Shown here piece by piece: positions 6,101-25,285 of a stretch of 64,000 nucleotides of DNA. The translations under genes were made by a program, and so were the position numbers. The notes under the pieces are model-generated. The model was not told the DNA's origin, did not search any database, and saw only the letters and a program-made list of their open reading frames with translations. How positions within the stretch are numbered: position 1 is the first letter of the stretch; each line of letters starts with the position of its first letter. This DNA comes from Nicotiana tabacum. Its lineage: Eukaryota > Streptophyta > Magnoliopsida > Solanales > Solanaceae. Where the stretch lies: assembly GCF_000715075.1 (NCBI RefSeq), contig NC_134095.1:47408806-47472805 (forward strand), given 5' to 3'.

Positions 6101-7185
6101 TTAGAAGTTGTGGGTAGATTCGGACCAAACCAAGCCTGGTTTGGTCACGAAGAGGGTCAGGGGAGTGTCTGGTATGAAGATGGTGAGGTTTGGTATAGGT
6201 CCGGGTTCTACTCGAATCTTCAAATGAAGATTCGAGATGAAGGAAGGGGATTCGAGGCTAGGGGGTAATAGATCCATGTTCAGGAGAGTGAGGGGGTCCT
6301 GGGGTGTTCAGGAGGTGGTCACCGACGTTCATGCCGCCGGGTTCTGGTGAAGGGGAAACTAGGGCGGCTGCTAGGGTTTCGGGGGTTTCAGGGCTTGGTG
6401 AGGAAGGAGCTGAGTGAAGGGGGGGTTCGACTAGGGGGCGTGGGGTGTGATAGAAAGCTTATATATGGTCTAAGGGTTTAGATCTGAGCCGTTGGATCAG
6501 ATGATCTCAACGGCTTGGATCTGATGGTGAGGGGTGAGACGAGGTCGTTTGGTATTAAAACGGGGTCGTTTGGGTTTAAGTGATGGATTGGGTTGGACCG
6601 GCTAAACAGGTCGGGTCATGGGTGCGGATGTGGACCGTTGGATCAAGAGGCTTAGACGGCTCAGATCGACTTTCCTGAAACGGCGTCGTTTGAATTGGTG
6701 CTTGGGCAGGCCGGATTTGGACTGGACTTGAGTGCCGATTTTGGGCCTATTTCGTTTCATTTTTGGGCCCAAACCGATTTTCAACTCTTTTCTTTTTGTT
6801 TTTTTTCTAATTTTAAAACAAAAAATGAAAAATAACAAATAAATAGTAAAACAAATGAAATTAAAACAAACAACAATGTAACACTTCAACACCATTATCA
6901 CACCAAATTAAAATGTTCAAGTAAGTTAAATCACAACCTAGAACGAACAATGCACATATATTTTGAATTTTCTTTTAACTACTGAATTACGGTTTGATTA
7001 CTATGACAGACATACCTTGTGTTTTGACTGATAAGATCAAAAAATGCAAACAAAATGGGATGAACCACAAATGACTAGCAGTACATGTCATGAAAAATTG
7101 GAAAATTTGTACAGCGAGGTCACTGGTCACTATTTTTGTTTTCTTTTGGAGTGCTTGTCCGTGAAGCAAAAATCACGTGCTTACA
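3192..7185 (-). repeat. 3' LTR of Ogre-type element (3,994 bp)
   Basis: The block begins tgtcacacctcc and ends cacgtgcttaca, and it recurs at 21296-25285. The differences I saw are scattered single substitutions and homopolymer length changes. No coding sequence is supported inside; short ORFs such as 3946-4188 are duplicated in both LTRs and match no family. It holds a long hairpin (5977-6012), several near-palindromic cgtcgttt motifs (about 6540-6690) and an inverted pair agccgttg/caacggct near 6488-6514. Confidence 0.95.
5977..6012. other. Long hairpin inside the LTR (left copy)
   Basis: An inverted repeat of about 15 bp per arm (taatcagggtgttct / agaacaccttgatta) has one mismatch and a 6-base centre. 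The right LTR carries it at 24080-24115, where a T-to-C change closes one more base pair. It could be a terminator-like or packaging-related structure, or a transcription-factor palindrome; no function is shown by sequence alone. Confidence 0.6.
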
Positions 7186-7198
7186 GCTGCCCCTCTTT
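7186..7198 (-). other. Polypurine tract of Ogre-type element
   Basis: On the minus strand this reads aaagaggggcagc and directly abuts the TGTAAGC start of the 3' LTR. It is purine-rich and in the exact position needed to prime plus-strand DNA synthesis. Confidence 0.85.
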
Positions 7199-7318
7199 GC
7201 ACGAAGACACGAAGGGTTTTCGCGCAAAGATAAAGCGAGCGATTTTTGCCCATCTGAATACTCCGTGTGAAGCATGTTTTTGAAAAAGATTTGACCGAAC
7301 CTTTGCTTCAGAGGTTTC

Positions 7319-7357
7319 CTACATATCCTGGGCTAAACAGGAGTCAGGTCAATGTAG
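7319..7357 (-). other. Stem-within-stem RNA motif, copy 1 (next to PPT)
   Basis: In element sense (minus strand) the outer helix CTACAT (7357-7352) pairs with ATGTAG (7324-7319). The inner helix TCCTG (7342-7338) pairs with CAGGA (7330-7326) around a 7-base loop. The 5' bulge reads TGACCTGAC. Compared with the CTACGT/ACGTAG outer helix of copies 2 and 4, both strands have changed together, so the pair is kept. Confidence 0.6.
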
Positions 7358-7918
7358 TTCGGGAAATTTTGGTAGCTGGGACTACCGTGTGACTGTAGTG
7401 CTTGCTGCTGTTGTGCACTGTTGCCTGCTGCTGTAGGATGCTACTGCTCACTGATCTCCTTGTTACATTGTTCTTGAAAGGAAAAACAATAAGCTAAGCT
7501 AGACTATGGATCATGAGGTCTCATCTATCTTCAACTTGTTCTTGTTGCCTTGCTTTCTTGTCGGCTGATGCTTTCCTCCGATGCCTTTATTTTGTGAACT
7601 TGGGGGATGATACTGGTCCTTCGCTTTTTCCGAATGCCAGATTTTATCACTTCGCTTGATCTGCTGGGGACATGGCCCTCTTCTTTAAGCCTTTCAATGG
7701 TTTCTTCAGTGGTATGGCTTTCTTCACCAAAATTGTTATGTTGAGCATGCTATAACGTTCCCCAAACTGCTTCTTTTGAGACGCGTTCCTTCTTTCTTTT
7801 GAATCGCGCGTTTGCCTTTGCAGCCTTCTGCTTCTTGATGTTGGGGGTTTTATTGTTTCCTGCTTGGGGATCTCTGTTGTAACCTTCCGCCTTCAGGTGG
7901 GGTTACTGATTCCAGAAT

Positions 7919-8756
7919 CTAGAACTTAAATGTATTCCCGCATTATACTGGTGGGCGACCTAGAACTTAAATGTATTCCCACATTATACTGGTGGGCGAC
8001 CTAGAACTTAAATGTATTCCCGCATTATACTGGTGGGCGACCTAGAACTTAAATGTATTCCCGCATTATACTGGTGGGCGACCTAGAACTTAAATGTATT
8101 CCCGCATTATACTGGTGGGCGACCTAGAACTTAAATGTATTCCCGCATTATACTGGTGGGCAACCTAGAACTTAAATGTATTCCCGCATTATGCTGGTGG
8201 GCGACCTAGAACTTAAATGTATTCCCGCATTATACTGGTGGGCGACCTAGAACTTAAATGTATTCCCGCATTATGCTGGTGGGCGACCTAGAACTTAAAT
8301 GTATTCCCGCATTATACTGGTGGGCGACCTAGAACTTAAATGTATTCCCGCATTATACTGGTGGGCGACCTAGAACTTAAATGTATTCCCGCATTATACT
8401 GGTGGGCGACCTAGAACTTAAATATATTCCCGCATTATACTGGTGGGCGACCTAGAACTTAAATGTATTCCCGCATTATACTGGTGGGCGACCTAGAACT
8501 TAAATGTATTCCCGCATTATACTGGTGGGCGACCTAGAACTTAAATGTATTCCCGCATTATACTGGTGGGCGACCTAGAACTTAAATGTATTCCCGCATT
8601 ATACTGGTGGGCGACCTAGAACTTAAATGTATTCCCGCATTATACTGGTGGGCGACCTAGAATTTAAATGTATTCTCACATTTTACTGGTGGGCGACCTA
8701 GAACTTAAAAGTATTCCCGCATTATACTGGTGGGCGACCTAGAACTTAAATGTATT
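7919..8756. repeat. 41-bp tandem array, about 20 copies
   Basis: The unit contains ctagaacttaaatgtatt, cccgcattatactgg and tgggcgac and repeats head to tail every 41 bp from 7919 to about 8756. Copies are nearly identical. The variants I saw are a tatgctgg form at about 8190 and 8272, an acatt form at about 7981, and divergent last units near 8674-8715. The array lies in the 3' UTR of the Ogre-type element, a known birthplace of plant satellite repeats. There are no variable spacers, so it is not a CRISPR array. Confidence 0.97.
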
Positions 8757-9508
8757 TGAAATTGTTTCCCCGTTCTTCCGAGAAAATTTTCGACAATCGG
8801 CAGAAAATTTTCTGCCCTGATTTTTGGTGGTTTCCCTGGCGTTGCGTCTTGCCGCCATCATCAATCCTTTGTTTTCCTGCAACAGACAAAAGGATTTAGT
8901 TAGTTTTAATCGTGGTGGTAGGAGGTGCCTTTCCGGCGGATGATTTTTCCTCTCTTCCCTTTTTCTTGCTCTATGTCCCCATAATTGGTTGGTGGACAAA
9001 ATTGCTTGCTGGGGGTTTCTAGCCTGCTGGGGCTGGTTTTCAATTTATCCCCTTTCCTGCTTTCTCTTTAAGTACATGTTGTGGGAGTCTATTTTACTCC
9101 CGAAACCACTCCCTTTAGGAGCTTACTTTCTCCAAAACTGCCAGGCGCGATCATTGCATTGCCTGGGGCCGGCCTTTAAGTCTGTTTGTGTTATCCTGCA
9201 TTGACTGAATTCCCCTTCGGTCTCTGGTAGTAAGCTTTGAAAAAATTCTTTTCAAGACAAATTTTTAGGAAGAGAAATAAAAGATAGAAAAAGGAGAAAA
9301 TCTTTCTGAACCAATATTTGGTGGGAGAAGAAATTCAGAAGAACTTATCTGGAGGACATGACTGGTCCCCGTGATCATGACATGCACCATAGATTCCCGA
9401 CCCAGTCTATTCGTATCAATCGATTTGCCCGATGGTCTGACTTGCTGGGGATGATAAATGAGTGTCCATTTCGTTGCGAATGTGGTCGCTTTTTGTTGAT
9501 CTGTCTTG

Positions 9509-9762
9509 TCGCCTCATAGTGCCCTTCGAGGGGTTTTCACTAATGAGACTCTCTCTTTTCTCTCATCTCCCAGCGCCTTATGGTGCCTGTGAAGGTTTTC
9601 ACCAATAAGACTCTCTCATTTCATATCTCTCATCTTACGTCGCCTTTCAGTGCCTGTGAAGGTTTTCAACGATAAGACTCTCTCATTTTATTCTTCATCT
9701 TACGTCGCCTTTCGGTGCCTGTGAGTGTTTTCACCGATAAGACTCTCTCATTTTATTTTTTA
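9509..9762. repeat. Imperfect 60-71-bp tandem repeats, four copies
   Basis: Four diverged units each contain a variant of gtgcctgtgaaggttttcac followed by gataagactctctc, at about 9519, 9579, 9651 and 9716. Divergence and unequal unit length suggest this array is older than the 41-bp one beside it. Confidence 0.8.
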
Positions 9763-10195
9763 TCGAGGAATTGGGGTGTTGTCGATACGACCCTCTCTTC
9801 TGGAGATTCCTTTGACCATCAATTCATTCCCCGTCTTACGATCATCTTCTTTGCTGGGGATCGGTGCATTATTCTCGGCCTTATTTGCCTGACTTGGCAT
9901 CTCTTGGATATTGATCGGGAGGTCTTTTGGACGTCGATGTTGGTTTTGGGGTGGGGTTAAAGAAAGGCTATAAAAATGAAAATAATTTGATGGGTGATGT
10001 GCTACAACTTTTGGAATCAAACCTTTGTTGGAACTTAAAACATAACCTCTGCCCCAGTTTTCATGCTTGGGGAATCTTATTTTTACACTTAGGTTGAGCT
10101 ACGTGCGTTACGCACACTGTGCCTATTATGCACACTATGTACATTATGCATCCTATATACACTGTGATGCACACTATGACCGAGCCGTGAGGCGC

Positions 10196-10231
10196 CTACG
10201 TATCCTCTTTGAGGAATCAGGTCAAACGTAG
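10196..10231 (-). other. Stem-within-stem RNA motif, copy 2 (after integrase)
   Basis: In element sense the outer helix CTACGT (10231-10226) pairs with ACGTAG (10201-10196). The inner helix TCCTC (10215-10211) pairs with GAGGA (10207-10203) with a 3-base loop. The 5' bulge is TTGACCTGAT and a single T separates the 3' arms. Confidence 0.6.
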
Positions 10232-10257
10232 TTCCCACGGTTTTGTATTTCTTATGA

Positions 10258-10394
10258 TTTTATCTTTTTTTTTCTTTGTTGTTGTTTTTTTTTCCTTTCT
10301 TTCTCCTTCTTTTCATTTTCCTTTAAAGATTTTCTTTTCTTTTCTTTTCTCTCTTTTTTTCTTTTCTTTTTTTCTTCTTTTTTTCCATGTCTTT
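10258..10394. repeat. Polypyrimidine tract (T/C-rich)
   Basis: This is almost pure T and C on the plus strand (purine-rich in the element transcript), about 330 bases downstream of the integrase stop in transcript order, up to about 170 bases from it at its near end. It is low complexity; the ORF across it is not credible. Confidence 0.8.
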
Positions 10395-10561
10395 TCCATT
10401 AGTGATTCCAAAAGAGGGGTATGAAAGAATAACTTAAGGCTCAAAAGGGGAAGCAAGGGTTAAAAGTGTTTGGATAGAAGAAAGAATTGCCTCCGTCATC
10501 TCATTATCCAATAAATGCCAAATACAAACAAACGAACCAATAATTGCCATAATTAAAGAAA

Positions 10562-11866
10562 TTACGCATAATATCTCTTGACTGCATCAGAATTGATAGC
10601 CATGTCGACACATCTCCCCTCGATATCTGTCAAACACAAAGCACCGTTGGACAATACTCTGGTCACGATATAAGGCCCTTGCCAATTTGGGGCGAATTTG
10701 CCTTTTGCCTCGACCTGATGCGGGAGGATCTTCTTCAATATCTGCTGCCCTACTTCAAACTTCCTAGGGCGCACCTTCTTATTGTATGTTCTTGCCATTC
10801 TCTTCTGGTATAGCTGACCATGACACACTGCCGCCAATCTTTTCTCGTCTATCAAGCTTAACTGTTCCAACCGAGCTTTGACCCATTCATCATCATCAAT
10901 CTTGGCTTCAGCGACAATCCGGAGGGATGGAATTTCGACCTTGGCCGGTATTACGGCTTCAGTTCCGTACACCAACAAATAAGGAGTTGTACCTATGGAA
11001 GTCCGGACAGTAGTGCGGTAACCCAACAAAGCAAAGGGTAATCTCTCGTGCCATTGTCTGGATCCTTCCACCATCTTTGGCAGTATCTTCTTGATATTCT
11101 TATTGGCTGCTTCGACCGCTCCATTCGCCTTGGGACGATATGGGGTGGAATTGCGATGGGTAATCTTGAATTGTTGGCATACCTCTCTCATCAGGCTACT
11201 GTTAAGATTCGCACCGTTATCCGTGATGATCACTTTTGGGATTCCAAATCTGCAGATGATATGGGAATGAACAAAGTCCACCACTGCCTTTTTGGTTACC
11301 GACTTGAAGGTTTTAGCCTCAACCCATTTGGTGAAGTAATCAATGGTCACAAGAATGAACCTGTGGCCGTTGGATGCTGCTGGTTCGATAGGGCCAATGA
11401 CATCCATGCCCCATGCTACAAACGGCCAGGGTGCTATCATCGTATGTAACTCTGTTGGCAGAGAATGGATCAGATCTCCATGTATCTGGCACTGATGGCA
11501 TTTCCTTACGAAAGTGATACAGTCGTGTTCCATGGTGAGCCAATAACACCCTGTTCGAAGGATTTTCCTTGCCAATACATATCCGCTCATGTGTGGCCCA
11601 CAAACTCCAGCATGTACCTCTTCCATAACCGTCGTGGCTTGACCGGCATCTATACATCTCAACAATCCTAAATCTGGGGTTCTTTTGTACAACACTCCTC
11701 CGCTGAGGAAGAAACCATTCGACAAACGCCGAAGGGCTCTTTTTTGGTCTCTAGAGGCCTGTTCTGGATATGTCCCCATTCCGAGGTATTCCTTGATATC
11801 ATGAAACCAGGGTTCACCATCTGGCTCCTCTTTTACGGCATTACAGTAAGCGTGCTGATCACGGAC
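10562..11866 (-). CDS. Integrase domain of Ogre-type pol
   Basis: This part of pol inserts the cDNA copy into the genome. It shares the RT-RNase H frame but is separated from it by a TAG at 11869-11867. The sequence right after the TAG (VRDQHAYC) belongs to the same polyprotein, so the stop is a lesion and not a gene boundary. Counting from the methionine at 11779, the HHCC zinc site is H56, H63, C94 and C97, and the catalytic core is D126 (GMDVIGP), D187 (ITDNGA) and E223 (GAVEAANK), which gives DD35E spacing. A C-terminal tail follows (VGQQILKKILP, WQGPYIV) and the frame ends at 10562. I see no chromodomain, which fits Tat rather than chromoviruses. Confidence 0.92.
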   Translation of the reverse strand, partial: VRDQHAYCNAVKEEPDGEPWFHDIKEYLGMGTYPEQASRDQKRALRRLSNGFFLSGGVLYKRTPDLGLLRCIDAGQATTVMEEVHAGVCGPHMSGYVLARKILRTGCYWLTMEHDCITFVRKCHQCQIHGDLIHSLPTELHTMIAPWPFVAWGMDVIGPIEPAASNGHRFILVTIDYFTKWVEAKTFKSVTKKAVVDFVHSHIICRFGIPKVIITDNGANLNSSLMREVCQQFKITHRNSTPYRPKANGAVEAANKNIKKILPKMVEGSRQWHERLPFALLGYRTTVRTSIGTTPYLLVYGTEAVIPAKVEIPSLRIVAEAKIDDDEWVKARLEQLSLIDEKRLAAVCHGQLYQKRMARTYNKKVRPRKFEVGQQILKKILPHQVEAKGKFAPNWQGPYIVTRVLSNGALCLTDIEGRCVDMAINSDAVKRYYA

Positions 11867-14039
11867 CTACATGTGTAGAGGATCAACATACATTTTGTCA
11901 GGGTGGTGCAGCATTGATGCTAAGGTGGCCAAGGCATCCGCAACCTCATTGTGAACTCTCGGGATATGTTTGAACTTCACCGACCGAAATCGCTTGCTCA
12001 GATCATGCAAGCATTGTCGGTATGGTATGAGCTTTAGATCTCGCGTTTCCCATTCACCCTGAATCTGATGTACCAAGAGGTCCGAGTCTCCCAAGACCAA
12101 GACGTCTTGGACATCCATGTTCGCAGCCAAGCGCAGACCCAGAATGCAAGCTTCATACTCGGCCATATTATTGGTGCAATAGAAGCGTAGTTGAGCCGTA
12201 ACAGGATAATGGCGTCCTGTTTCAGAAATGAGTACTGCTCCTATTCCAACCCCTTTTGCATTTGCAGCTCCGTCGAAGAAAAGCTTCCAACCCGGTTCCT
12301 CAGTTAATTCCATCTCATTTGTATGCATTACCTCTTCATTGGGAAAGTACGTTCTTAAGGGCTCGTACTTTTCATCAACGGGATTCTCTGCCAAATGATC
12401 GGCCAGCGCCTGGGCTTTCATGGCTGTCCTCGTCACATAGACGATATCAAACTCTGTGAGCAGAATTTTCCATTTTGCTAACCTTCCCGTGGGCATAGGT
12501 TTCTGAAAGATGTACTTCAATGGGTCCAAACGGGATATGAGATAAGTAGTATATGAAGACAGGTAGTGCTTCAACTTCTGAGCTACCCAAGTTAGGGCGC
12601 AACATGTTTTCTCGAGTTGAGTGTACTTGACCTCATGTACTGTGAATTTCTTACTAAGATAGTAGATGGCCTGCTCCTTCCTTCCTGTGTCATTATGTTG
12701 CCCCAGTATACAACCAAATGAATTTTCCAGGACCGTCAGGTAAAGAATTAATGGCTTCCCAGGCTTAGGCGGGACCAATACGCGTGGATTAGACAGATAC
12801 CCTTTGATTTGGTCGAAGGCCTCCTGACACTCTGCCGTCCAACCTACCGCAGCATCCTTTCTCAGCAGCCGGAATATGGGCTCACAAGTTGCTGTGAGTT
12901 GAGCGATGAACCTGCTGATATAATTGAGTCTACCCAGCAAACTCATTACCTCTGTTTTGTTCCTTGGCGGTGGCAAATCTCGGATGGATTCAATTTTGGA
13001 TGGGTCTAACTCAATCCCCCGTCGACTGACGATGAATCCTAGCAGCTTTCCTGATGGAACCCCGAACGCGCATTTGGCCGGGTTAAGCTTGATATCATAC
13101 CTTCGGAATCTTTGGAAAAATCTCCTTAGATCTGCTACATGGTCCTCCTGACGCCAAGATTTGATGATCACATCATCGACGTACATCTCGATTTCTTTGT
13201 GTATCATGTCATGGAACACAGCAGTCATTGCTCGCATGTACGTTGCCCCGGCGTTCTTCAATCCGAACGGCATTACCCGATAGCAGTAGGTTCCCCATGG
13301 CGTAATAAACGCTGTCTTTTCCGCATCCTCCTCATCCATTAGGATCTGATGATAACCCACATAGCAATCCACAAAGGATCCGATCTCGCGCCCCACGCAA
13401 TTATCGATCAGGATATGAATGTTGGGTAACGGAAAATTGTCCTTGGGACTTGCTTTGTTGAGGTTGTGGTAGTCGACGCACACCCTGATTTTTCTATCCT
13501 TCTTTGGGACTGGTACCACATTGGCCAACCACTCGGGATATCGAGTGACCCGAATGACCTTCGCCTGCAACTGCTTAATCACCTCTTCTTTGATCTTTAC
13601 ACTCATTTCTGTTTTAAATTTCCTTAGTTTTTGCTTGACCGGAGGGTATGCCGGGTGAGTGGGCAGTTTGTGAACCACTAAATTGGTGCTTAATCCAGGC
13701 ATATCATCATATGACCATGCAAAAACATCCTTGAATTCCGTGAGGGTTTTGATCAATTCTTCCCTGATATTCGGCTCAATGTGGATGCTAATTGTGGTTT
13801 CTTGGACGTTATCAGCGTCTCCTAGATTCACAGCCTCAGTGTCATTTAGGTTGGGTTTGGGTTTTTCCTCAAATTGGTACAGTTCTCGGTTTATCCCTTC
13901 GAAGGCTTCACCTTCGTCACATTCAGATTCATTGTCATAAACGTCCTCTTGCATAATTGAGTCGGATTCAGATTGATTTATTAGACTAGGTCGAAGATCC
14001 GCTGTGCATACCATGTCATTAGAACCAGTTAAAAGAGAA
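11867..14039 (-). CDS. Reverse transcriptase and RNase H of Ogre-type pol
   Basis: This is pol exon 2: reverse transcription of element RNA and removal of the RNA strand. The open frame begins within the intron at 14062 (no ATG there), but the probable exon starts at 14039, after a pyrimidine-rich AG acceptor. Numbered from 14062, the RT runs about residues 150-330, with FVDCYVGYHQ near 229-238 and the YVDD catalytic box at 294-297. A first RNase H-like or tether region follows (about 410-520). The second, archaeal-type RNase H has D597 (FFDGAA), E635 (NMAEYEA), D659 (LGDSD) and D709 (NEVADAL). Two RNase H-like regions are typical of Tat elements. The frame ends at a TAG that interrupts the normal run into integrase. 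Confidence 0.93.
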
Positions 14040-14215
14040 CTGTTCAGAAAGAAAAAGAACAAAACAAAAATTAAAATAGGACAAAAAGAGAGAACTTTAT
14101 TAAACTTGCGGGATAAAAGGGTTCACACTTTTACAAGACAAACGTAAAATTTGGATTACACCCTGGAATAATCCGAACAAAACAAACAAAAAAAACATAA
14201 ATCAAAGCCTACTAC
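14040..14215 (-). other. Probable 176-nt intron joining protease to RT
   Basis: The donor is TTG|GTAGTA at 14216/14215 and overlaps the protease stop. The acceptor is a polypyrimidine run ending GAACAG|TTCTC at 14040/14039. Exon 1 ends with two bases of a codon and exon 2 supplies the third, so splicing removes the stop and fuses protease to RT in frame. Ogre elements are known to carry an intron at exactly this place; the exact junctions here are my inference. Confidence 0.8.
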
Positions 14216-15798
14216 CAAGACTCCCCTCGGACCGGAAGAGGAGTAACAGTCCAATTGTTGGTTTTGGCCTCAGGCCCCACAAACTGTATCTCTGCTCTGC
14301 TGGAACCTTCTCCAGCTTCTACCATATTGACATCCGCGAATAGCCTCTCAAAACTCTGATTCAGGTCCTCATTTATACCGATGAATGGTCCTAGAATCTT
14401 TGGGACCGGTGACCCCTTGGCACTTGCTTTAACAAAAGACCTTGAGAGACGTGGCACCGGCTTAGGCAGAAACCAGACCCTCTTCTTCATTTTTCGCGCT
14501 TGCATCCTATCTGCTGCGGTTGGTTTGAACCCCAATCCGAAAGTTTCCAGATTTTTAGGTAAGGTGACAGATTGGACAATCCCCTGAAGCTCGACTCCTA
14601 GGCTCTTTCCCGACACAAATCCATTACCCAGCATTTCCGAGACCATCATGACTGTTGCGGCAGCTACCCTAGGGTGTGGGATGATCTCTCCTTCAGAAAT
14701 TTTGTTGGCCGACCCTGTGTCGAAAATCTGGTAGACCCAAGGACCTTTGTCATCAGCGGTCTCTATGAAAGGTACAATGGCTCCGCCCATGGTGCACGTT
14801 GTATCCTCGCCGTGTAACACGACCTCTTGTCTTTCCCACTCGAACTTCACTATCTGATGTAGGGTGGAGGGCACCGCTTTGGCTGCATGAATCCATGGTC
14901 GTCCCAACAGTAGGTTATAAGATACTGTGGCGTCCAACACCTGGAATTCCATGGTAAACAGGACCGGACCAATGGTCAGTTCAAGTACAACATCCCCTAC
15001 AGTGGCTGTTCCATTTCCGTCAAACCCTCGGACACAGATACTGTTCTTGTGGATCCTTCTGTGGTCGATCTTTAACTGGTTTAGGGTAGATAGTGGACAA
15101 ATATTGGCGCTTGAGTCGTTATCCACCAATACTCGAGTTACCACCGAGCCTTCATATTTGACAGCTAGGTATAAAGCTTTATTATGCTCTGTACCTTCCA
15201 TTGGTAGGTCATCATCTGAGAATGTTACCCTGTTCACCTCGAAAATCTTGTTGGCAATGGTTTCCAGGTGGTTTACAGAAATCTCACTGGGTACATGAGC
15301 TTCGTTCAATATCTTCATCAGGGCCCGCCGATGCTCCTTAGAATGGATCAGTAATGATAGCAGCGAGATCTGGGCCGGTGTTTTCCTCAGCTGTTCGACC
15401 ACGGAATAGTCCTGCACTTTCATCTTCCTCAGGAACTCCTCAGCCTCTTCTTCGGACACAGGTTTCTTGGTTGCAACTGGGTTGGTTCTTCTTAGCTCCA
15501 CCGGAGCAAAACATCGACCTGATCGAGTCAGTCCTTGCGCTTCACAACTAACTTCTTCTACCTGTTTTCCTTTGTACATCACCACCGCCTTTTCATATTT
15601 CCAAGGCACAGCCTTGCTATCAATCATCGGCAGCTGGACTACAGGCTTTACGGTGACCAGTTCTCTATATGCCCCCTTTAACACAACAGCAGGTGCGGGC
15701 GGAACCCCTGATATTACCAACTTGTTTGGCTCAGGTTTGCTTGTTATGGCGGACGGGCTCTTTCCCAATATCACTACTGGCTTGACGCTTTCTCCCTG
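14212..15798 (-). CDS. Aspartic protease region of Ogre-type element, altered active site
   Basis: The region is in frame with gag, directly after the gag stop. The first codon of the downstream open frame is GTG, not ATG, so the protein could only be made as a gag-pro fusion. The protease core is VLVDNDSSANICPLSTLNQL near residues 216-235 of the open frame, followed by LLLGRPWIH about 75 residues on, typical of Tat proteases. The family's DNGS/DSG active-site glycine is Asp here (codon 15117-15115, GAC where GGC would be expected), which should abolish activity. The C-terminal part ends PVRGESW at a TAG that overlaps the predicted splice donor. Confidence 0.87.
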   Translation of the reverse strand, partial: QGESVKPVVILGKSPSAITSKPEPNKLVISGVPPAPAVVLKGAYRELVTVKPVVQLPMIDSKAVPWKYEKAVVMYKGKQVEEVSCEAQGLTRSGRCFAPVELRRTNPVATKKPVSEEEAEEFLRKMKVQDYSVVEQLRKTPAQISLLSLLIHSKEHRRALMKILNEAHVPSEISVNHLETIANKIFEVNRVTFSDDDLPMEGTEHNKALYLAVKYEGSVVTRVLVDNDSSANICPLSTLNQLKIDHRRIHKNSICVRGFDGNGTATVGDVVLELTIGPVLFTMEFQVLDATVSYNLLLGRPWIHAAKAVPSTLHQIVKFEWERQEVVLHGEDTTCTMGGAIVPFIETADDKGPWVYQIFDTGSANKISEGEIIPHPRVAAATVMMVSEMLGNGFVSGKSLGVELQGIVQSVTLPKNLETFGLGFKPTAADRMQARKMKKRVWFLPKPVPRLSRSFVKASAKGSPVPKILGPFIGINEDLNQSFERLFADVNMVEAGEGSSRAEIQFVGPEAKTNNWTVTPLPVRGESW

Positions 15799-17670
15799 TT
15801 ACTGTACCTTCGTTCCCCCACTGGTTGAGACTTCCTTCGGGGCGGCTTGGATCATCATCACTGTTTGTGAGGGTTTTCTCAATTCTCCTCCCTCATACAC
15901 CAACTCAATCATGTGAGTCTCGTGGTGCGCTGGCAGTGGGTTTTGGTTGATGTTAGGAGCTTCCGGTGTCTGGACCTCGATCTTATTGGTGTCGATAAGA
16001 TCCTGTATGGCATGCCTTAACTTCCAACACTTCTCGGTGTCATGCCCAAGCATCCCTGAGCAGTATTCACAACTTATTGATCGATCCAAATTCTGAGGTG
16101 GGGGATTTGGTTCTCGAGTCTGGACAGGACTAACCAAACCCAATTGCCTCAGCTTGTGGAACAAAGCGGTGTAGGTTTCTCCCAACTCCGTGAAAGTTCT
16201 CTGTTTCCGCAACCTGTCATTCCTAGCATCTGGATTTCCCCGAAAACCTGCCCCTGGAGGGTTTCTATATGCCCTTGGTGGAGGATAGGTGTTTTGTGGT
16301 GGTTCATATATGTTCTGGGGAGCCAGCGCGCGCCATTGCGGGCAAACCGGAGGCTGGGTGTATGCTTGGGCCTGGTGTACGGAACAATGTGGTTCTCGAG
16401 GTGGATAGAAATTTTGTGGTGGGTTGTATGGGTAGTTTGACCTGTGAGGTCTGGGTTGGTTGTAGTGCGGCCTGCCAGCCCTGGACCAACTGCCTTCCTC
16501 GATCGTGGCAACCTCTTCTTTCTTTCTTCTCAGCGCACCTCTCGTGCCGCTTTGAATAGCCTGTGTTGTGGCTTTGAGTGCCGAATAGTTCAAGATTTTG
16601 TCAGACCTCAGACCCTCTTCTATCATGACCCCTATCTTGACCACCTCGTTGAAAGATTTTCCAACTGTTGTCACCAAGTGACCAAAGTAGGTTGGATCCA
16701 ATGTTTGCAAGAAATAGTCCACCATTTCTCCCTCTCTCATGGGAGGATCGACTCTAGCTGCTTGTTCTCTCCAGCGGAACCCGAACTCGCGAAAACTTTC
16801 CCCGGGTTTCTTCCCAGTTCTTAATAATGTGAGACGGTCAGGGACTATCTCGAGATTGTACTGGAAATGACCTGCAAAAGCCTGCGCCAGATCATCCCAA
16901 GTATACCACCTACTGGAATCCTGCCTGGTATACCATTCTAGTGCAGATCCGCTCAGACTTTGGCCGAAATAAGCTATCAGCAGCTCATCCTTGCCGCCTG
17001 CCCCTCTCATTTTGCTACAGAATCCCCGCAAATGTGCCATGGGATCACCGTGCCCTTCATATAGATCAAATTTAGGCATCTTGAACCCAGCCGGGAGTTG
17101 GACGTCTGGGAAAGGGCATAGATCTTTGTATGTTACGCTGACTTGGTTGCCCAGCCCGTGCAAGTTCCTGAAGGACTGCTCCAGGCTTTTGAACTTTCTC
17201 AATACTTCATCTTGTTCAGGGGCCTTAGCCGGCTTTTCAATCTCTGCCGGCACTTCCAAATGTGGATTGTAAGCCTGTGGTTCGGGGGCATGAAATGTAG
17301 GCTCAGGGGGGTAGTACTGTGTATCGTGAGCCTGAAACAATGGCTCACTGGTCGTTCTTTGCAAAGGGGCTGATGTTGGTCCCACAAAAATGGGAATATT
17401 GGGTGTTGGGAGAGGTTGATGGGGTGGTGGAGCTTGGGAATCATGAGGGCTTCTTTCTTGATGATAAAGGGGATTTGGGCGGCTTGTGGAAGGGCCAGAG
17501 TGAGGGTATTCCGGCGTGTATCCCAGTGTTTCAGGGCTCTTTTGTGTTTTGGCTATGGCTAGCTGCATTGCACTCATCTCTAGTCCCATCCTTTCAATCT
17601 TTTCCATCGCTTCTTTCAACAACTGGCTCATCGGCCTCTCTTCCTCATTACTATTCTCTGAGGTAGTCAT
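15799..17670 (-). CDS. Gag of Ogre-type element (623 aa)
   Basis: This is the structural protein that packages element RNA. The ATG at 17670 starts MTTSENSNEEE. A proline-rich N-terminal third (about 50-145) is followed by the retrotransposon gag core (about 195-350, with FDLYEGHGDPMAHL, ALEWYTRQ and YFLQTL) and a zinc knuckle at 534-548 (C534, C537, H543, C548; CX2CX5HX4C). The frame stops at a single TAA (15801-15799) and continues open into protease in the same frame. That TAA is either a lesion or a readthrough site; the flanking codons (CAG TAA CAG) give no decisive readthrough context that I know of. Confidence 0.93.
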   Translation of the reverse strand: MTTSENSNEEERPMSQLLKEAMEKIERMGLEMSAMQLAIAKTQKSPETLGYTPEYPHSGPSTSRPNPLYHQERSPHDSQAPPPHQPLPTPNIPIFVGPTSAPLQRTTSEPLFQAHDTQYYPPEPTFHAPEPQAYNPHLEVPAEIEKPAKAPEQDEVLRKFKSLEQSFRNLHGLGNQVSVTYKDLCPFPDVQLPAGFKMPKFDLYEGHGDPMAHLRGFCSKMRGAGGKDELLIAYFGQSLSGSALEWYTRQDSSRWYTWDDLAQAFAGHFQYNLEIVPDRLTLLRTGKKPGESFREFGFRWREQAARVDPPMREGEMVDYFLQTLDPTYFGHLVTTVGKSFNEVVKIGVMIEEGLRSDKILNYSALKATTQAIQSGTRGALRRKKEEVATIEEGSWSRAGRPHYNQPRPHRSNYPYNPPQNFYPPREPHCSVHQAQAYTQPPVCPQWRALAPQNIYEPPQNTYPPPRAYRNPPGAGFRGNPDARNDRLRKQRTFTELGETYTALFHKLRQLGLVSPVQTREPNPPPQNLDRSISCEYCSGMLGHDTEKCWKLRHAIQDLIDTNKIEVQTPEAPNINQNPLPAHHETHMIELVYEGGELRKPSQTVMMIQAAPKEVSTSGGTKVQ

Positions 17671-18193
17671 GCTTGTTGCTATCGGTCCTTTGGATCTGGT
17701 TTGGTAGGAGTGTGTTGCCAGAGTTCTTTAACAACTAACTTGTCTGGTATCAGACAACAACAAACTTTTGTTAGCGTTAGAGTTTAACAGATTTGATCAT
17801 AACACATAGAGGATGCAATGCTCCTAGGCAGCTAACCGTTTCTACATGCTTTGCTTCAAACAACATGCGTCATCCCGTCTTGCTCATTTACCCCCTTTTT
17901 ATTTATTTTTGTATTTTCTTTTCTTTCTTTAATAAAAGCGGTCGAATCTTATGGGGATTGCCTACGTATCACGTCCCCGCGCGAATCAGACCAAGCGTAG
18001 TTCTGCCTCAAAGTAAAGACACATAGAAATTCTTCTGGAATCACTTAATTTCATTATCAAAATTTGCTATTACACATTACTTCAAATAAAAATAGCAAAA
18101 GTACAGACTCCGCGGTTTTAAACTTGGTTTGAAGAAAAGAAAACAACATATGGGAAAACAACAAAAGCCAAATAAACAGGACTTGACCAAAAA
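17671..18193 (-). other. ORF1-gag spacer of Ogre-type element
   Basis: About 520 bp lie between the ORF1 stop and the gag start. I see no coding sequence. The spacer holds one copy of the stem-within-stem motif (17962-18000) and a T-rich tract at about 17890-17935. Confidence 0.7.
17962..18000 (-). other. Stem-within-stem RNA motif, copy 3 (ORF1-gag spacer)
   Basis: In element sense the outer helix CTACG (18000-17996) pairs with CGTAG (17966-17962). The inner helix TCGCG (17984-17980) pairs with CGTGA (17973-17969), with one G-U wobble that exists only in the element-sense strand (it would be A-C on the other). The bulge ends in CTGAT. Confidence 0.58.
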
Positions 18194-20239
18194 CTAATTC
18201 TCCAACTTAAGGGCCCGCGAGGCATCATTCGGCCTTTCCGCGGCTCTAGGTGTAAGGTCTCTTTGCAGGATCTTCAACTCGTTCATAATCCGGTGGACGC
18301 AGCCCATGATGGAAACAAGGAGGGTCTTCCGAGGTGTTCGCTCACATGCCAGGCATTTCATGTAGATGTAATGCCCGATTTCGTCAATCCTTGCTCGAAT
18401 GTTATCCCTTTCACTGAACAACTGCCTGATTTGTCGGTTCTTTAACCCCAGTGCCTGAGCATTGTCGGCAAGTCGATCCTGGAACAACTCCATTTGTCTT
18501 TCCATGCAGGCCATTGCATCGTAGCACTGTCTTCTGTCGGCCTGGGCGTCTCGTGCTTGTTTGATGATCCGATCATGTAGAGTGGAGTTCGTCTCCCTTA
18601 ATATCCCGACGCTCATTTCATAATCCCTTATGACCTGTTGCAAACGCTGCTTCTGGGCCTTTGTGTACTTTGCCCATCTGACCTTCATCCTTGCTATGCA
18701 AGCTTTTGATTGTTCTAATTCTTCTTGGCTTTTGATGACCTGATTTCTCAAACTTGCTATCAATCTTTCGTTAGAGCGATGCTTCTGTCGGTCAACGTTA
18801 CTCTTACTGGCTTGGCGAAGGCGGGCCTTCAAGGTTTGGTTTTCTTGGGCTAGCTTGTTTCTTTCAACCTGCTCCGAGGCGACTTGCACATTGTTCTCAA
18901 ATACAAGCCTTTCGACTTGTTGCTTTAGCTTCCCGATTTCAACCCGGTAACCTTCCTCCCTTTTTAACCATCCCCATTGCTCTTGTGAATCATCTGTGAA
19001 GTGTTGGACGTGGGCCCTTTTAGCAGGTCTTTACTGAATCTGAAACCTTCTTTCGAACCAAGCATCGTACTTTGGGTCTACCTCACCTTTAGCTAGTTCT
19101 CGCACCATGGTCTTGGGCTCCAAGAATCTACATTCATGCCACAGTTTTCTAATCTTCCCCTCGGGGAATATGACTCCCGGGCTTAATTCCAAGGCATGCT
19201 TGCTCAGATCTTCATCAGTAGGGACTACTTGAAACCTGCCCAATTGTCGTAATACCCGATGAGGGGCATATGGCTGGATGCTGCGAAGCCCCATTAAGAG
19301 AACATGACATTCTTCAGCCGACATGTAGATCACCTCAGTATCAGTCAACCAACCGAATGCCCATTCAATTTGGTCAGCTGTTGTTGACCTTAACCATGTA
19401 AACCATGCTTCGACACCTTCAGGAAATCTGGCGCCTGTCATGCGCTTCTTGAATCCGCTGATACAATTCCTCTCGGTCAACCCGTGGTTCATGTATCCTA
19501 CTCGGTGATGGAGATGTTCCTACATCCATAGCTGAAGTAACAGGTTGCAACCTTGGAAGAACTTGCCTCCTTCTCGGCATATAGTCAGAGCCCGGTAGAT
19601 TTCGGACAAAATCAAAGGAACCACAGTACTATTGGTTCTTTTGATTTCCACGTCGGCCATCCCTACCAGACCTATCTCTATCTTTTTATCCTTCCTTGGA
19701 CAGACCATGACTCCCAAGAACGCTGTGATAAAAGCCAAAATACGTCTTGCTTCCCATTTGTTTCTGTTCCCGCCGTGAGTTAGCCCAAGGTTCGGTTCCT
19801 CGAAACCCTGCGGGGCTCCGTACCGCTGATACAAGAAATGGAGATCACAACATCCTCTCGATAAATCGTCATGTTGTATCTTCCGACTGATGCTTAGTAG
19901 ATCCAGAAACGCATGCGGAGACACTGGCCTTGGCGAAAGCAAATATTGCCCTCTTAACCTCTCATTCAATCCCGCATATCCGGCGACTTCCTCAAGTGTC
20001 GGTGAAAGTTCAAAGTCAACAAAACGGAATACATTGCGGGTTGGGTCCCAAAATGGTATTAGAGCTTCAAGAATATCTGTTCTCGGCCTAACACCCAACA
20101 AATTTACAAAACCTCCCAATATTCTTCCTACTACCCCTTTGCTATCGGCTTCCAAGTCATTCCACCACATGTGGAGTTGTAGAGGGACCTCGCTGAGGGC
20201 CGAGAATGGTTCATTTTGCTCTGTGTTCATCCTGCACAT
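18194..20239 (-). pseudogene. Extra ORF1 of Ogre-type element, two premature stops
   Basis: One long frame of about 682 codons runs from the ATG at 20239 to 18194, interrupted only by TAG at 19522-19520 and TAA at 19033-19031. Homologous-looking sequence continues in frame across both. The N-terminal half (LQLHMWWNDL, LEALIPFWDP, FELSPTLEEVAGYAG) resembles the plant mobile-domain or DUF7745-like proteins found as an additional ORF upstream of gag in Ogre elements; the family name is from memory. The C-terminal third (about 455-660) is a charged coiled coil with long heptad-like stretches. The function is not established. It lies upstream of gag in the transcript, separated by a 520-bp spacer. 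Confidence 0.82.
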
Positions 20240-20422
20240 TTATTAAGGTGACCTTTTAGGCGAAAACAAAAACCTTTATTTTGACTCTAAACAAAAAATC
20301 TTTGAAAACAAAAACAAACAATATATGTATTTATATACATGTGTATATATATGTACATATATGCTTTATGGTATATCATTATTGGTAAAATGAAAAAGGG
20401 AGTTGGACCCGATGAGGGTTGC

Positions 20423-20461
20423 CTACGTATCCCACATCCGGTGAGAATCAAACCGACGTAG
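20423..20461 (-). other. Stem-within-stem RNA motif, copy 4 (5' leader)
   Basis: In element sense the outer helix CTACGT (20461-20456) pairs with ACGTAG (20428-20423). The inner helix TCTCAC (20446-20441) pairs with GTGGGA (20435-20430), with one U-G wobble valid only on the element-sense strand, around a 5-base loop. The bulge is CGGTTTGAT. Confidence 0.6.
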
Positions 20462-21273
20462 TTCGGGTAATAAACTAACTAGTTTATTTATTTATCATTA
20501 TTTTTTTTTTATTTCTTTTTTTTTTTGGAAAATAGAGTAAAATAAAATAAAAACTCATTCCTCATTCTCAGCTTGCTATTTTTCTCTTTTCTCTTTTCCT
20601 TTGTTTTTAGTAAAACAAACTCATAAATATACCCATTTTCTCTTCTATCTGCATTTTGTCATTTGTTTTTATTTATTATTTTTTTTTGTAAAAATTTCCC
20701 AACATTCAAAACCGGTCATCATGCATGTTTGAAGCAAATAAATGCACAAGCAGTGAGTAGGATGCATCAGGATGGCCTTTTCTATTTCAGGTTGCTATTC
20801 CTAGACGGACCCAACCCCTGTGTTGAGTCCCCTAAGTCAAAAATGCACATGATGCAAATAAGCATTCCTACTAGGGATCCGGCATGAAGTTGAGTTATTC
20901 TAGGTTCAGAACCTGGGTGTTTGTTCTAGACCTAGCTTACCCGAGCGGACAGCTCGAGCCGAGGGGGGGCAGCGTACCGGGAATACAGAAGCTTCACCGG
21001 CTTAGCAACTTGTCCGAACCTCGTTCTAAATTGGGATTTGACACTATACAGAAAAGAAGTCGTACGAAGTATGCCCTTCTTCATGATTTAGAAGACTCAG
21101 AGAGAAGATGGGTTTCGGCACAATTTATATACAGTTCACGTAATATCAAAGCAGTAAAAGGCAACCAATTAGCACATTAAGCACAGATCATGTAACAAAA
21201 TCAGATAAAGCTGAACATAACAATTTATTCTAAGCTCGAATTTCTATCCCAGAACCAGTAGTTCTGGTTTTTA

Positions 21274-21291
21274 TCCCCAGCAGAGTCGCCA
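21274..21291 (-). other. Primer binding site of Ogre-type element
   Basis: On the minus strand tggcgactctgctgggga lies four bases after the 5' LTR end. Its TGG start and position are those of a tRNA primer site. It is not the initiator-Met site. Ogre elements are reported to use tRNA-Arg, but I cannot verify the tRNA here. Confidence 0.8.
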
Positions 21292-21295
21292 GAGC

Positions 21296-24200
21296 TGTCA
21301 CACCTCCTTTTACATACCCGCGCGGGCACAAGGGAGTTTTTTTCAATTAAAGGACAATCGAAACGGGATTAGTTTATTTATTTCAGAGTCGCCACTTGGG
21401 AGTTTTAGGGTGTCCCAAGTCACCAATTTTAATCCCGAACCGAGGAAAAGAATGACTCCATATTACAGTCTGCGTACCAGAAATCCGGACAAGGAATTCT
21501 GTTAACCCGGGAGAAGGTGTTAGGCATTCCCGAGTTCCGTGGTTCTAGCACGGTCGCTCAACTGTTATACTCGGCTTATTTATCTGATTTTAAATACAAT
21601 TATGAACCATGTGCAAATTTTATCTTTTACCGCTTTATTATCATTATTTTTTAGGAATGTGAACATCGCTAAAAAAACATGTCTTTGGACTACGTCACAT
21701 GAAATGCACCCACAATCCGGAACATATTTTATTTGACGTTTTGGGATTTGGATTTGGGTCGCATGAAATGCACACCCAAGTTTAAGAAAATAGATTATTA
21801 AATACGCACCTAAAGAAACTATCGTGTTATTATTTTGGGAGGGCCGTGAAATTCGCTAAACGGCATGTCCCGAATTCTAAATACTTTGATATATACATAC
21901 AATAGAGGGCCCCGCAACTTTTGTTCATTTTGTTCGTCGAGGCTCGTCTCATCCTTGTTTTTAAAGGGATATCCTATAGCAACTACGTTTCTTGTCGCGC
22001 TTGTCTCTACTAATTGAAAACAGTAAATAGCCCTAGTTAATTACATGCTTGCAAGTTATCTATAATAGAATTCCGAGTGCTTGTGCAAAATCAGAAGCAC
22101 GGCCACGTACACAGTCAGCCGAGCAAAAATTAAGGGCCCAAATCCAGCCCATGCGTGATGTACCAGACCTGGGCCATTGTTTGTTCGATGCGGGCCTGCT
22201 TGGTCTGTTTCGACCTGGGTTCGACCTTCGTGAGGTTGATATTGCAAGCTCTGTGTTCTTTATCTTAAAACATGGTTTACCAGTTATATGAAGCAGTTTA
22301 TCAGGAGGGAAAGAACTTAACTAGTAGTGTACGATTTTAATGCTTGGCATACATTACAGAATTATACTACACCAGTAAGCTAAATCTAAGATACAACCTA
22401 ATGCATTGGGCATACTTTTATCACCAACCTATATACACAGTCTAACATTCAACTACCATACATTGACATTTATTAGGCATGAGGACTATCTCCAGTATCC
22501 AAAACAAGAATGTAAACTATTATACATTATATGAGGCCTAACATAATAGTCTATGCATATATAAGCATCTGCAGATCTTCTCTTTTACATTCATGCTCAA
22601 ACCTTTCAAGTTACAGTGGTAGTATATTTGTGTACCTGGTATAGAGGAGCAAAAGAAGAAGAAAGATGATCAGCTGAGTGGTACACAGCAAGCACAGCAG
22701 CAGGTAAACAACACAACACAGCAACAAACAAAACAGCCACAATGGAGAAGCTCAACAAGTGATCGAGCAATGGACAGACAATCCCAGAAAACAGAGCAGG
22801 AAACAACAGCCCAGAATGTTGAATGTAACAGCAATCCAGTGATCCCAATAACCCCAAAAGCTCAACAAATAACCACTACAGTTCCGATAGTCAAAACTCA
22901 AACCAACAGTACACAGAAAGCTCAGTGTAGTAACAATCACAGCAGAAGAACACAGACTTCTCTTAATGGAACAAATAACAATCCCAGTTAGGATAACCAA
23001 CTTGGTTTCTTTGTGCAGTTTTTGGACAGTGTTCAATTACAGTATTTCTGGAAATTTCCTTCTGTTTTTTTTCAGTTTTCTTCAACTCACAAGACCTCTC
23101 CTCAAGACTAAAATTTCCAGCCCCTTCTAAGTTCTGAAAATAGCCTATTTATAAGCCAAACAACCAGTGCAGTCAAGCTGCCTGGATCCTGCCAATTTGC
23201 AGACTGCCCATACCTATTAAATCCCACGCCTAAGCATCTTTTTGATGCCAGCCATTTGTTCCCCACGCTTGGCCTTATTCTTTAATCAAGAGTTATGGGT
23301 TCATTTAAGTATTCATTTTAAACCCCCATACTCTTGTGTCTTGTTCCCCATTTGCATTAGTTTAATCCTAAATTAGTACCCTACTTGTCAGCTCACTTAA
23401 ACTAAGCTTTTTCCTGTTTTTCATGAACCCCAGACTACCCTTGTTAACCTTGATTATTACTGCCCTAAACCCCTTGCAGCATCAGGGCATTTTGAACTTC
23501 TGAAAGTTCAATTCAAGACTGCCCTAGCCTGATTCTTTTAATTTGTTTACAATGCAGTTACAAGCTAGTAGTCACAGCTAATGTCAAGCATCCAATTAAC
23601 AATCAACAGGTTCATTCACTTACGTGAAGTTGTACGAATTAGAATATTTGAACATTCAGTCGTAGGAAGTTAATCGACGACATTTATCAAGTCGACTATA
23701 CTAATTATAACAGGTAACAATCAGTCGTTCATATAAACCAATACATACAGGGACCTGAAGGGCTTCAGACAACTTTGGTCAATCACTGGGAACCTATATA
23801 AGTTATTTATGCGACGTCTATCCTAATCGGACATGTTTATCATAGGATACGTTCAAATCACACACAGAAAACAATCGACCAAATAAAAGGTCTTTGACAG
23901 AGATAGAAGAAATCCGAATGAAAAATAACAAAAATAGCAAACAAACACAACGAAACATGCTGACAACTTAATTAGCAGTTGAATAAAACAAAAAGGAAAA
24001 GAAAAACTTACCGAGAAATGTCCAAACAAAATTGATCCAAATCTGACTCAACTCTGACCCTTTGAGGCCGAACAAACTTTAATCAGGGTGTTCTCACATG
24101 AGAACACCTTGATTAAGGTCTATTAGACCTCAAACCCCCGTTAAGGCTAGCCGGATTCCCCAGGTTCATGTGTTCTAAGGTCTGGATTTTCAGATCTGGT

Positions 24201-25285
24201 TTTTTAGAAGTTGTGGGTAGATTCAGACCAAACCAAGCCTGGTTTGGTCACGAGGGGGGTCAGGGGAGTGTCTGGTATGAAGATGGTGAGGTTTGGTATA
24301 GGTCCGGGTTCGACTCGAATCTTCAAATGAAGATTCGAGATGAAGGAAGGGGATTCGAGGCTAGGGGTAATAGATCCATGTTCAGGAGAGTGAGGGGGTC
24401 CTAGGGTGTTCAGGAGGTGGTCACCGGCGTTCATGCCGCCGGGTTCTGATGAAGGGGAAACTTGGGCGGCTGCTAGGGTTTCGGGGGGTTTCAGGGCTTG
24501 GTGAGGAAGGAGATGAGTGAAGGGGGGTTCGACTAGGGGGCGTGGGGTGTGATAGAAAGCTTATATATGGTCTAAGGGTTTAGATCTGAGCCGTTGGATC
24601 AGATGATCTCAACGGCTTGGATCTGATGGTGAGGGGTGAGACGAGGTCGTTTGGTATTAAAACGGGGTCGTTTGGGTTTAAGTGATGGATTGAGTTGGAC
24701 TGGCTAAACAGGTCGGGTCACGGGTGCGGATGTGGACCGTTGGATCAAGAGGCTTAGACGGCTCAGATCGACTTGCCTAAAACGGCGTCGTTTGAATTGG
24801 TGCTTGGGCAGGCCGGATTTGGACTGGACTTGAGTGCCGATTTTAGGCCTATTTCGTTTCATTTTTGGGCCCAAACCGATTTTCAACTCTTTTCTTTTTG
24901 TTTTTTTTCTAATTTTAAAACAAAAAATAAAAAATAACAATAAATAGTAAAACAAATGAAATTAAAACAAACAACAATGTAACACTTCAACACCATTATC
25001 ACACCAAATTAAAATGTTCAAGTAAGTTAAATCACAACCTAGAACGAACAATGCACATATATTTTGAATTTTCTTTTAACTACTGAATTACGGTTTGATT
25101 ACTATGACAGACATACCTTGTGTTTTGACTGATAAGATCAAAAAATGCAAAAAAATGGGATGAACCACAAATGACTAGCAGTACATGTCATGAAAAATTG
25201 GAAAATTTGTACAGCGAGGTCACTGGTCACTATTTTTGTTTTCTTTTGGAGTGCTTGTCCGTGAAGCAAAAATCACGTGCTTACA
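21296..25285 (-). repeat. 5' LTR of Ogre-type element (3,990 bp)
   Basis: This is the partner of 3192-7185, with the same tgtcacacctcc...cacgtgcttaca ends. It carries the element's promoter, since transcription runs leftward, but I could not pick a TATA box with confidence. Confidence 0.95.
24080..24115. other. Long hairpin inside the LTR (right copy)
   Basis: This is the same inverted repeat as at 5977-6012, but the centre reads ctcacatgag. The stem therefore extends by one Watson-Crick pair, leaving a 4-base loop. Confidence 0.6.

Follow-up and report, generated by a model that had tools for sequence, protein, structure and literature searches.

The stretch of Nicotiana tabacum DNA analysed here (the window; 64,000 nucleotides (nt) of contig NC_134095.1, positions 47,408,806 to 47,472,805) contains on its minus strand a long terminal repeat (LTR) retrotransposon whose gene order points to an Ogre element. 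The initial annotation described a stem-within-stem motif once in each non-coding section of this element, and the locus raises the question of what this motif folds into and why an element would hold it at four places. Comparison of the copies indicated that the motif is very probably a pseudoknotted RNA domain of about 75 nt. As read from sequence, the comparison supported the fold, the recurring positions, the sharp boundaries and the persistence of the domain in derivatives that hold only gag or have a middle without detectable genes. The domain is probably an RNA signal that the element needs for multiplying.

Motif copies in the window

The four copies were located in the leader, in the spacer between open reading frame (ORF) 1 and gag, behind the integrase ORF (post-integrase) and ahead of the polypurine tract (PPT). 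In the following list P1 is the outer helix, P3 the inner hairpin and P4 a hairpin in the linker that follows P1.

20400..20464, minus strand: copy 1, leader; covariance model E 6e-17; P1 20461-20456/20428-20423; P3 20446-20441/20435-20430; P4 ACCC 20419-20416/GGGT 20410-20407; pseudoknot GGTT 20454-20451/AACT 20404-20401
17940..18003, minus strand: copy 2, ORF1-gag spacer; covariance model E 7e-18; P1 18000-17996/17966-17962; P4 AATC 17959-17956/GATT 17948-17945; pseudoknot GGTC 17992-17989/GACC 17943-17940
10177..10234, minus strand: copy 3, about 330 nt past the integrase ORF end; covariance model E 4e-15; P1 10231-10226/10201-10196; P3 TCCTC/GAGGA; P4 GCC 10193-10191/GGC 10186-10184; pseudoknot TGACC 10224-10220/GGTCA 10181-10177
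7292..7360, minus strand: copy 4, pre-PPT; covariance model E 8e-19; P1 CTACAT/ATGTAG 7357-7352/7324-7319; P4 AACCT 7316-7312/AGGTT 7302-7298; pseudoknot TGACC 7351-7347/GGTCA 7296-7292

The string GAACTAC starts on the minus strand at window positions 20464, 18003, 10234 and 7360, and the first base of copy 4 is 163 nt from the first base of the PPT match. A covariance model of the nested helices, built from 36 copies including these four, which therefore match by construction, found on both strands of the window these four only, at E 8e-19 to 4e-15, with the next best match at E 2.3. The places and strand first described for the copies were thus confirmed by coordinates and model, and no fifth copy was present. 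A chance match at window position 57824 was excluded from the copy counts. The outer helix was CTACGT/ACGTAG in the leader and post-integrase copies and CTACAT/ATGTAG in the pre-PPT copy, the change that the initial annotation had reported, while the spacer copy (CTACG+C/ACGTAG) lost the sixth pair. The inner helices (TCCTC/GAGGA, TCCTG/CAGGA, TCGCG/CGTGA and TCTCAC/GTGGGA) were also as described there.

Fold of the motif

The bulge inside the outer helix was found to pair with a strand 14-22 nt beyond that helix, forming a pseudoknot (P2). The complementary strands of bulge and downstream sequence included TGACC/GGTCA, TGACT/AGTCA, GGTC/GACC, GGGTT/AACCC, TAACC/GGTTA, GTGGCC/GGTCAC and GCGACC/GGTTGC. 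In addition, the linker that leads from P1 to the pseudoknot's 3' strand folds as the hairpin P4, with stems such as AACC/GGTT, AATCT/AGATT, AACCTTTG/CAAAGGTT, AATCTTTG/CAAAGATT, AGCCTC/GGGGTT, ACCC/GGGT, AGCTC/GGGCT and GCC/GGC. The first description of the motif was right in its outer and inner helices and had overlooked both the pseudoknot and this hairpin. The whole is a double pseudoknot of about 75 nt with the helix order P1-P2-P3-P1'-P4-P2'. Read in the sense of the genomic RNA, the domain would run from P1 (5-6 bp) through the bulge strand and a UGAU joint to hairpin P3; after one U would come the 3' strand of P1, then hairpin P4 and, beyond a C, the 3' strand of P2, which forms a pseudoknot of 4-6 bp with the bulge.

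Outside the helices, a GAA upstream of P1 was nearly invariant, and at least 90% of the 36 aligned rows had C as the letter just 5' of the 3' strand of the pseudoknot. The GAA is not absolutely invariant; GAG, AAA, TAA or GGA stood in its place in copies L036:1450, L034:8578, L038:2034 and L039:932. A closing helix between GAA and an NTC anchor (CCCGA/TCGGG in the leader) was considered and left out, being inconsistent across the classes by eye. Some spacer-type copies have a bulge of greater length, in which GTAATGGTC predominated at the listed places on C2, C4, C7, C9, C12-C15 and C17 and GCAAAGGTC at those on C3, C5, C8, C11 and C16, a split that may possibly reflect two subgenomes with different families.

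Covariation of the helices

Pairing was counted in a sequence-only MAFFT alignment of 36 copies hand-picked to span the positional classes. Over 15 pairs, 93.5% of 522 helix cells were paired, compared with 22-46% when the partners were slid by 1-3 columns, and 66 cells were altered on both sides. All five pseudoknot pairs were altered on both sides and 92.7% of the pseudoknot cells were paired. None of 500 shuffles matched the real paired fraction, the number of doubly changed cells or the covariation score. In a larger set of 93 copies (73 scanned from the window and loci L001-L050 and 20 fetched; two mis-anchored copies are included in the pseudoknot count), the four core pseudoknot pairs were in register in 358 of 372 cells, with slid controls at 68% or lower. 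A 4-mer swap test favoured the real pseudoknot on pairs formed (9/20,000).

The first post-integrase copies had been picked by a pattern that prescribed G at one position of the pseudoknot, and for this reason a pre-PPT sample that was not selected on the pseudoknot was drawn, by the 3' half of the motif with both pseudoknot strands left free. The 20 copies taken, among the places listed, had 97 of 100 pseudoknot cells paired and 17 were fully paired, with the fourth pair being G-C in 12, A-U in seven, G-U in one and A-C in none. For P4, a stem of at least 3 bp was present in 87 of 91 copies (the 93 less the two mis-anchored) against 21% of shuffled linkers, and stems of 5 bp or more occurred in 38 of these copies and in 1.4% of the shuffles. 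Among 20 copies picked by the 5' half only, P4 reached at least 4 bp in 15, compared with 27% of shuffles with the partner position free. The earlier claim that departures from Watson-Crick pairing are G-U rather than A-C in the element-sense strand held over the 93 copies (34 vs 15; 19 vs 11 among distinct helices). It may be read as a modest strand signal, the copies being related.

These counts also bear on a palindrome acting at the DNA level, for instance a transcription-factor site with no role in RNA, for which the palindromic TACGTA and the little-varying P1 would speak. Such a site is very improbable, given that P3 and the pseudoknot covary, that the P4 hairpins are varied and that G-U is favoured over A-C in the sense strand. 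Overall, the earlier view of a structured RNA under selection was upheld and strengthened.

Several results pull the other way. On the 36-copy alignment, two of five measures were not above the shuffles (pairs changed on both sides, 153/500; further pair types, 329/500). The 4-mer swap test was weaker for the pseudoknot on fully paired combinations (637/20,000), and with fixed 4-mers it was non-significant for P4 (4,149/20,000), whose hairpins differ in register. In L034 and L048 the leader copy forms only three of the four core pseudoknot pairs, and two or more of the five pairs were missing from some pre-PPT copies (L127, L128 and L129). A prediction fixed beforehand stated that a pyrimidine at pseudoknot position 3 would be met by a complementary change in the partner. 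In 20 copies with a changed base, taken for bulge variety among 100 places listed and read by eye, this compensating change was found in none. All 20 matched the covariance model at E 3e-13 or better and most of them look like mutated copies with a single mismatch; the CACGTGTCC bulge recurred at nine of the 100 listed places, which indicates that pair 3 is open in one subfamily. A home-made test resembling R-scape (G statistic, average product correction (APC), substitutions re-dealt on the tree, 60 nulls, 54 distinct rows with the two mis-anchored kept) ranked proposed pairs 1, 2, 3, 6, 7 and 13 of 1,225 column pairs, none of them significant over that number (best three at E 0.08-0.5; three pseudoknot pairs at E 2.6-7.4). 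We think that this shortfall arises because most changes sit on the few deep branches that divide the classes. The check on covariation therefore came out in favour by the 36-copy pair counts and borderline by the tree-aware test. Nested folding of single copies gave no support (z -0.78 to +0.20), and RNAalifold on the four window copies gave no useful support and predicted a different inner helix. Finally, the comparison covered one plant genome.

Poor pairing was also noted for pre-PPT bulges such as ATGTCC or ACGTCC at L122, L124, L127, L128 and L129, several of which have a second GGTCAAA-like string about 40 nt further on.

Position in related elements

The four positional classes recurred in relatives of the element. 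All four copies were present within the stretch read in the window element and in five gag-only or pol-truncated elements (L033, L034, L036, L038 and L045), while L032 had three copies and part of a fourth, which runs off the edge of the stretch. The earlier statement of one copy per non-coding section was thus supported, with exceptions that weigh against the explanation favoured below: L031 and L046 had no pre-PPT copy within the stretch read (three seen), and L035 had only the post-integrase and pre-PPT copies, the 2.6 kb read on the upstream side of its gag match containing neither of the other two. The remaining stretches span just one half of their element. The distance from the pre-PPT copy to the PPT was 162-183 nt in all 16 elements showing both (no PPT was recognised in L038), and the post-integrase copy lay 133-331 nt beyond the last integrase match in all 11 elements that have both such a copy and an integrase end of full length, the window's included (L045, with pol remnants, was left out of this count).

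In the window and in L048, ORF1 lies between the leader and spacer copies. No ORF1 match separates these two copies in L031, L033, L036 and L046, at a distance of 750-980 nt, nor in L032, L034, L038 and L045, at 470-1,280 nt. Spacer and post-integrase copies were kept 1.2-1.35 kb apart in L020, L021, L022, L026 and L030. The interval there had no sense frame longer than 90 codons and, compared with the seven ORFs of the window, gave nothing significant (best E 0.01). Copies kept in derivatives without ORF1 or pol argue for a cis-acting role independent of the neighbouring ORFs, and the comparison favours a cis-acting RNA signal over a role bound to ORFs. The suggestion in the initial annotation of a role tied to ORF boundaries was accordingly weakened, both by the leader and spacer pairs without an ORF1 match between them (L031, L033, L036 and L046) and by the spacer and post-integrase pairs without detectable coding sequence between them. 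The loci L020, L021, L022, L026, L030 and L046 are a repeated derivative family without significant gag or pol similarity between spacer and post-integrase copies; the leader copy is kept in L046, which is the same place as L020.

A translation element that serves ORF1 and gag by internal initiation or shunting is improbable on the same evidence. The distances in the window, about 180 nt from the end of P1 to the first ORF1 piece and 290 nt to gag, would suit such an element, but two of the four copies come after the last coding sequence and copies were kept where ORF1 or gag was undetectable.

Each of the four classes forms an island of conservation. Identity of the 75-nt motif within a class was 74-81% across families, compared with 0.45-0.63 for the flanks and 0.44-0.57 for shuffled sequence. 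Most neighbouring 75-nt intervals were near the shuffled level, with an excess near the pre-PPT copy (0.55-0.63) and another on the upstream side of the spacer copy (0.59). Motifs of different classes were 57-64% identical. High identity within classes and lower identity between them give the four copies the likeness of ancient paralogues, and they look like paralogues inherited by position rather than products of a recent spread inside one element. The families compared also differed in their proteins; compared with the window, the ORF between gag and RT (reverse transcriptase) in L037, L039, L040, L041 and L050 was 33-46% identical and the integrase mostly 71-79% (one piece 50%).

An element for nuclear export or RNA stability, through which a host protein would help long unspliced or partly spliced RNA to reach the cytoplasm or avoid decay, would also hold its core near-constant while the ORF between gag and RT diverges, as a constant host partner predicts. 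The post-integrase copy at a short distance in 11 of 11 elements is consistent with it, and Ogre RNA in pea and Medicago is described as spliced in just a subset of transcripts (PMC6317226). We regard this explanation as unlikely; against it, elements without pol, in which the intron region has gone too, retain copies.

Comparison with known RNAs

Searches of Rfam with the window, single copies and loci gave sub-threshold chance hits only, with no match to the window at the gathering threshold, in agreement with the earlier remark that the motif belongs to no named RNA family. No description of the motif was found among the papers listed, judged by titles and opening lines of abstracts and mostly open ones, on Ogre, on retroelement RNA structure and packaging, on pseudoknots of plant LTR elements and on plant structured RNAs, which does not establish its absence from print. 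Literal motif strings occurred in five papers, apparently by chance, and a word search of a paper on new plant RNA classes (PMC12218528) found no mention of retrotransposons.

The helix order P1-P2-P3-P1'-P4-P2' is that of the nested double pseudoknot of the hepatitis delta virus (HDV) ribozyme and of HDV-like (R2) ribozymes, which are present in non-LTR retrotransposons (PMC3774820). A self-cleaving ribozyme of this kind, or a catalytically dead descendant, is nevertheless extremely improbable and membership was rejected, the topology being shared and the conserved L3/P1.1 and an Rfam match being absent. The P3 loops vary (AAA, GAAA, TTTAGCC and others), so that there is no conserved L3/P1.1, and P1.1 is impossible with a GAAA loop. 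The joint between P4 and P2 is just one or two nt and would not hold the catalytic joint, P1 begins with C-G, the GAA upstream is nearly invariant, and the motif is not at the RNA 5' end. Rfam gave no HDV match either for two 101-nt window stretches and five copies of 136-141 nt (E limit 10) or for five 3-kb loci (E limit 1). In addition, four cleavages would presumably sever the genome RNA.

A further comparison was made with the exoribonuclease-resistant RNAs (xrRNAs) of the dianthovirus class. If the knot blocked a 5'-3' exonuclease such as plant XRN4, it would yield RNAs that start at the knot (gag mRNA or the 3' non-coding part) or shield the body downstream. Stalling that gives sub-genomic RNAs is a strategy of plant RNA viruses, and a short, compact pseudoknotted cis-acting RNA in leader, intergenic and 3' non-coding places resembles their intergenic xrRNAs, in which the pseudoknot also covaries and the nucleotides just 5' of its 3' strand are near-invariant, as the C is here (PMC6299227). 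The conserved letters differ and the helix layout seemed different by eye, compared with text descriptions, and Rfam gave no xrRNA match, only sub-threshold chance hits. Stalling appears distinctly unlikely. It forms, with the export or stability element and its host partner, the pair of main rivals of the cis-acting tag set out below.

Among retroelements, cis-acting pseudoknots are already known, and what appears new is the combination of small size, double pseudoknot and fourfold repetition. The best parallel is the long-range Ty1 5' pseudoknot (TIPIRT), also in the RNA of an LTR retrotransposon, in which breaking either stem greatly cuts helper-mediated mini-Ty1 retrotransposition and one stem also serves RNA stability (PMC5454406). 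The Ty1 structure is described as a single pseudoknot spanning 326 nt at the 5' end, in contrast to a domain of about 75 nt present four times with short P3 and P4 instead of long loops. Pseudoknots predicted in the genomic RNA of Ty3, of the Ty3 group of LTR elements, are two in number and lie within GAG and POL coding sequence, not in repeated non-coding domains (PMC11381356). Plant retrozymes share the presence of structured RNA in plant non-autonomous retrotransposons (PMC4918200); they carry a hammerhead, a different fold, for which no Rfam match was obtained here.

Proposed function

We know of no other small double pseudoknot repeated at four places in retroelement RNA. The motif has nearly an even chance of being a new class of double pseudoknot with HDV-like topology and a non-ribozyme role, four per element, which marks the genomic RNA or stalls exonucleases and so gives sub-genomic RNAs. 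In its more specific form, a four-copy domain acting in cis as a tag of the genomic RNA, the explanation is the best we can offer and is held somewhat more tentatively. Four paralogous domains held at the leader, the ORF1-gag spacer, the post-integrase and the pre-PPT position would serve as the identity tag of the full-length genomic RNA, a trans-acting protein encoded by the element or the host would bind them, and this binding would be needed for packaging into particles or for reverse transcription. Such a tag would account for the copies kept by non-autonomous derivatives without ORF1 and pol. Packaging or replication as the function itself is a possibility that we put forward with still more reserve.

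Two points argue against this function. The ORF between gag and RT is about 45% identical between autonomous families with a near-identical motif core; a core that hardly changes next to an ORF that does would suit a host or Pol partner slightly better than Gag. For Ty1, moreover, attempts to demonstrate that the pseudoknot acts in encapsidation did not succeed (PMC4974528).

LTR retrotransposons form much of large plant genomes and, to our knowledge, few cis-acting RNA signals have been defined for those of plants. A compact, sharply bounded domain kept four times would offer a direct handle on the recognition, export, packaging or protection of element RNA. The natural deletion series, in which leader and spacer copies are kept after loss of ORF1, indicates a cis RNA function testable with small reporters.

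Abundance in the genome

Patterns for parts of the motif matched the 4.0-Gb genome far more often than by chance. Exact matches to the 5' half numbered 21,337 compared with four for its reversed control, those to the pre-PPT 3' half 9,298 compared with none and those to a leader pattern 706 compared with none. The three patterns address different classes and little overlap is expected, which gives about 31,000 half-motif matches in the genome. For the 5' half pattern 100 places were listed and 9.9 kb was read around 20 of them. These 20 stretches contained 53 covariance-model matches at E 3.1e-10 or better, 30 of which had served to build the model, and one more cut by the stretch end (E 0.0011). 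The whole motif was found in none of 50 viral-contig loci picked for matching one motif half (best covariance-model match E 0.049). The open frame that spans copy 3 gave a peptide that was found in five short predicted proteins of metagenome contigs, which shows that the sequence occurs elsewhere too.

Host retrotransposon in the window

The features of the element are as follows.

21290..25285, minus strand: 5' LTR, 4.0 kb, 98.9% identity with the 3' LTR
21274..21291, minus strand: primer-binding site (PBS), TGGCGACTCTGCTGGGGA
18194..20239, minus strand: ORF1 region, three open pieces, Pfam DUF7745/PMD (plant mobile domain) in two of the three
15799..17670, minus strand: gag ORF, Pfam Retrotrans_gag
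11867..14062, minus strand: ORF of RT, RNase H and a second RNase H, Pfam RVT_1, RT_RNaseH and RVT_3; dual RNase H, Tat clade
10562..11779, minus strand: integrase ORF, Pfam rve and Integrase_H2C2
7183..7197, minus strand: PPT, adjoining the 3' LTR
3186..7185, minus strand: 3' LTR, 4.0 kb, 98.9% identity with 21290-25285

The order on the minus strand was PBS, ORF1, gag, an ORF without a Pfam match at the place expected for the protease, RT with dual RNase H, integrase and PPT. The primer for TGGCGACTCTGCTGGGGA is presumably an Arg-tRNA. The RT ORF contains RT_RNaseH at 434-538 and RVT_3 at 596-714 and the integrase is the next ORF; a second RNase H (aRH) between RNase H and integrase is the criterion for Ogre/Tat elements (PMC6317226). 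Because the dual RNase H precedes the integrase, the element was placed in the Tat clade, Ogre/Retand type. A gap of 149 nt, at the place where Ogre/Tat elements would have an intron between the protease and RT frames, separates the Pfam-less upstream ORF, ending at 14212, from the RT ORF starting at 14062, and this gap, together with ORF1 ahead of gag, suggests Ogre.

The 3' non-coding part between copies 3 and 4 contains about 20 copies of a 41-bp unit (7919-8756), whose self-alignments are 94-98% identical. In the leader, directly downstream of the PBS, a perfect hairpin CCAGAAC-TACTG-GTTCTGG was located at 21249-21267.

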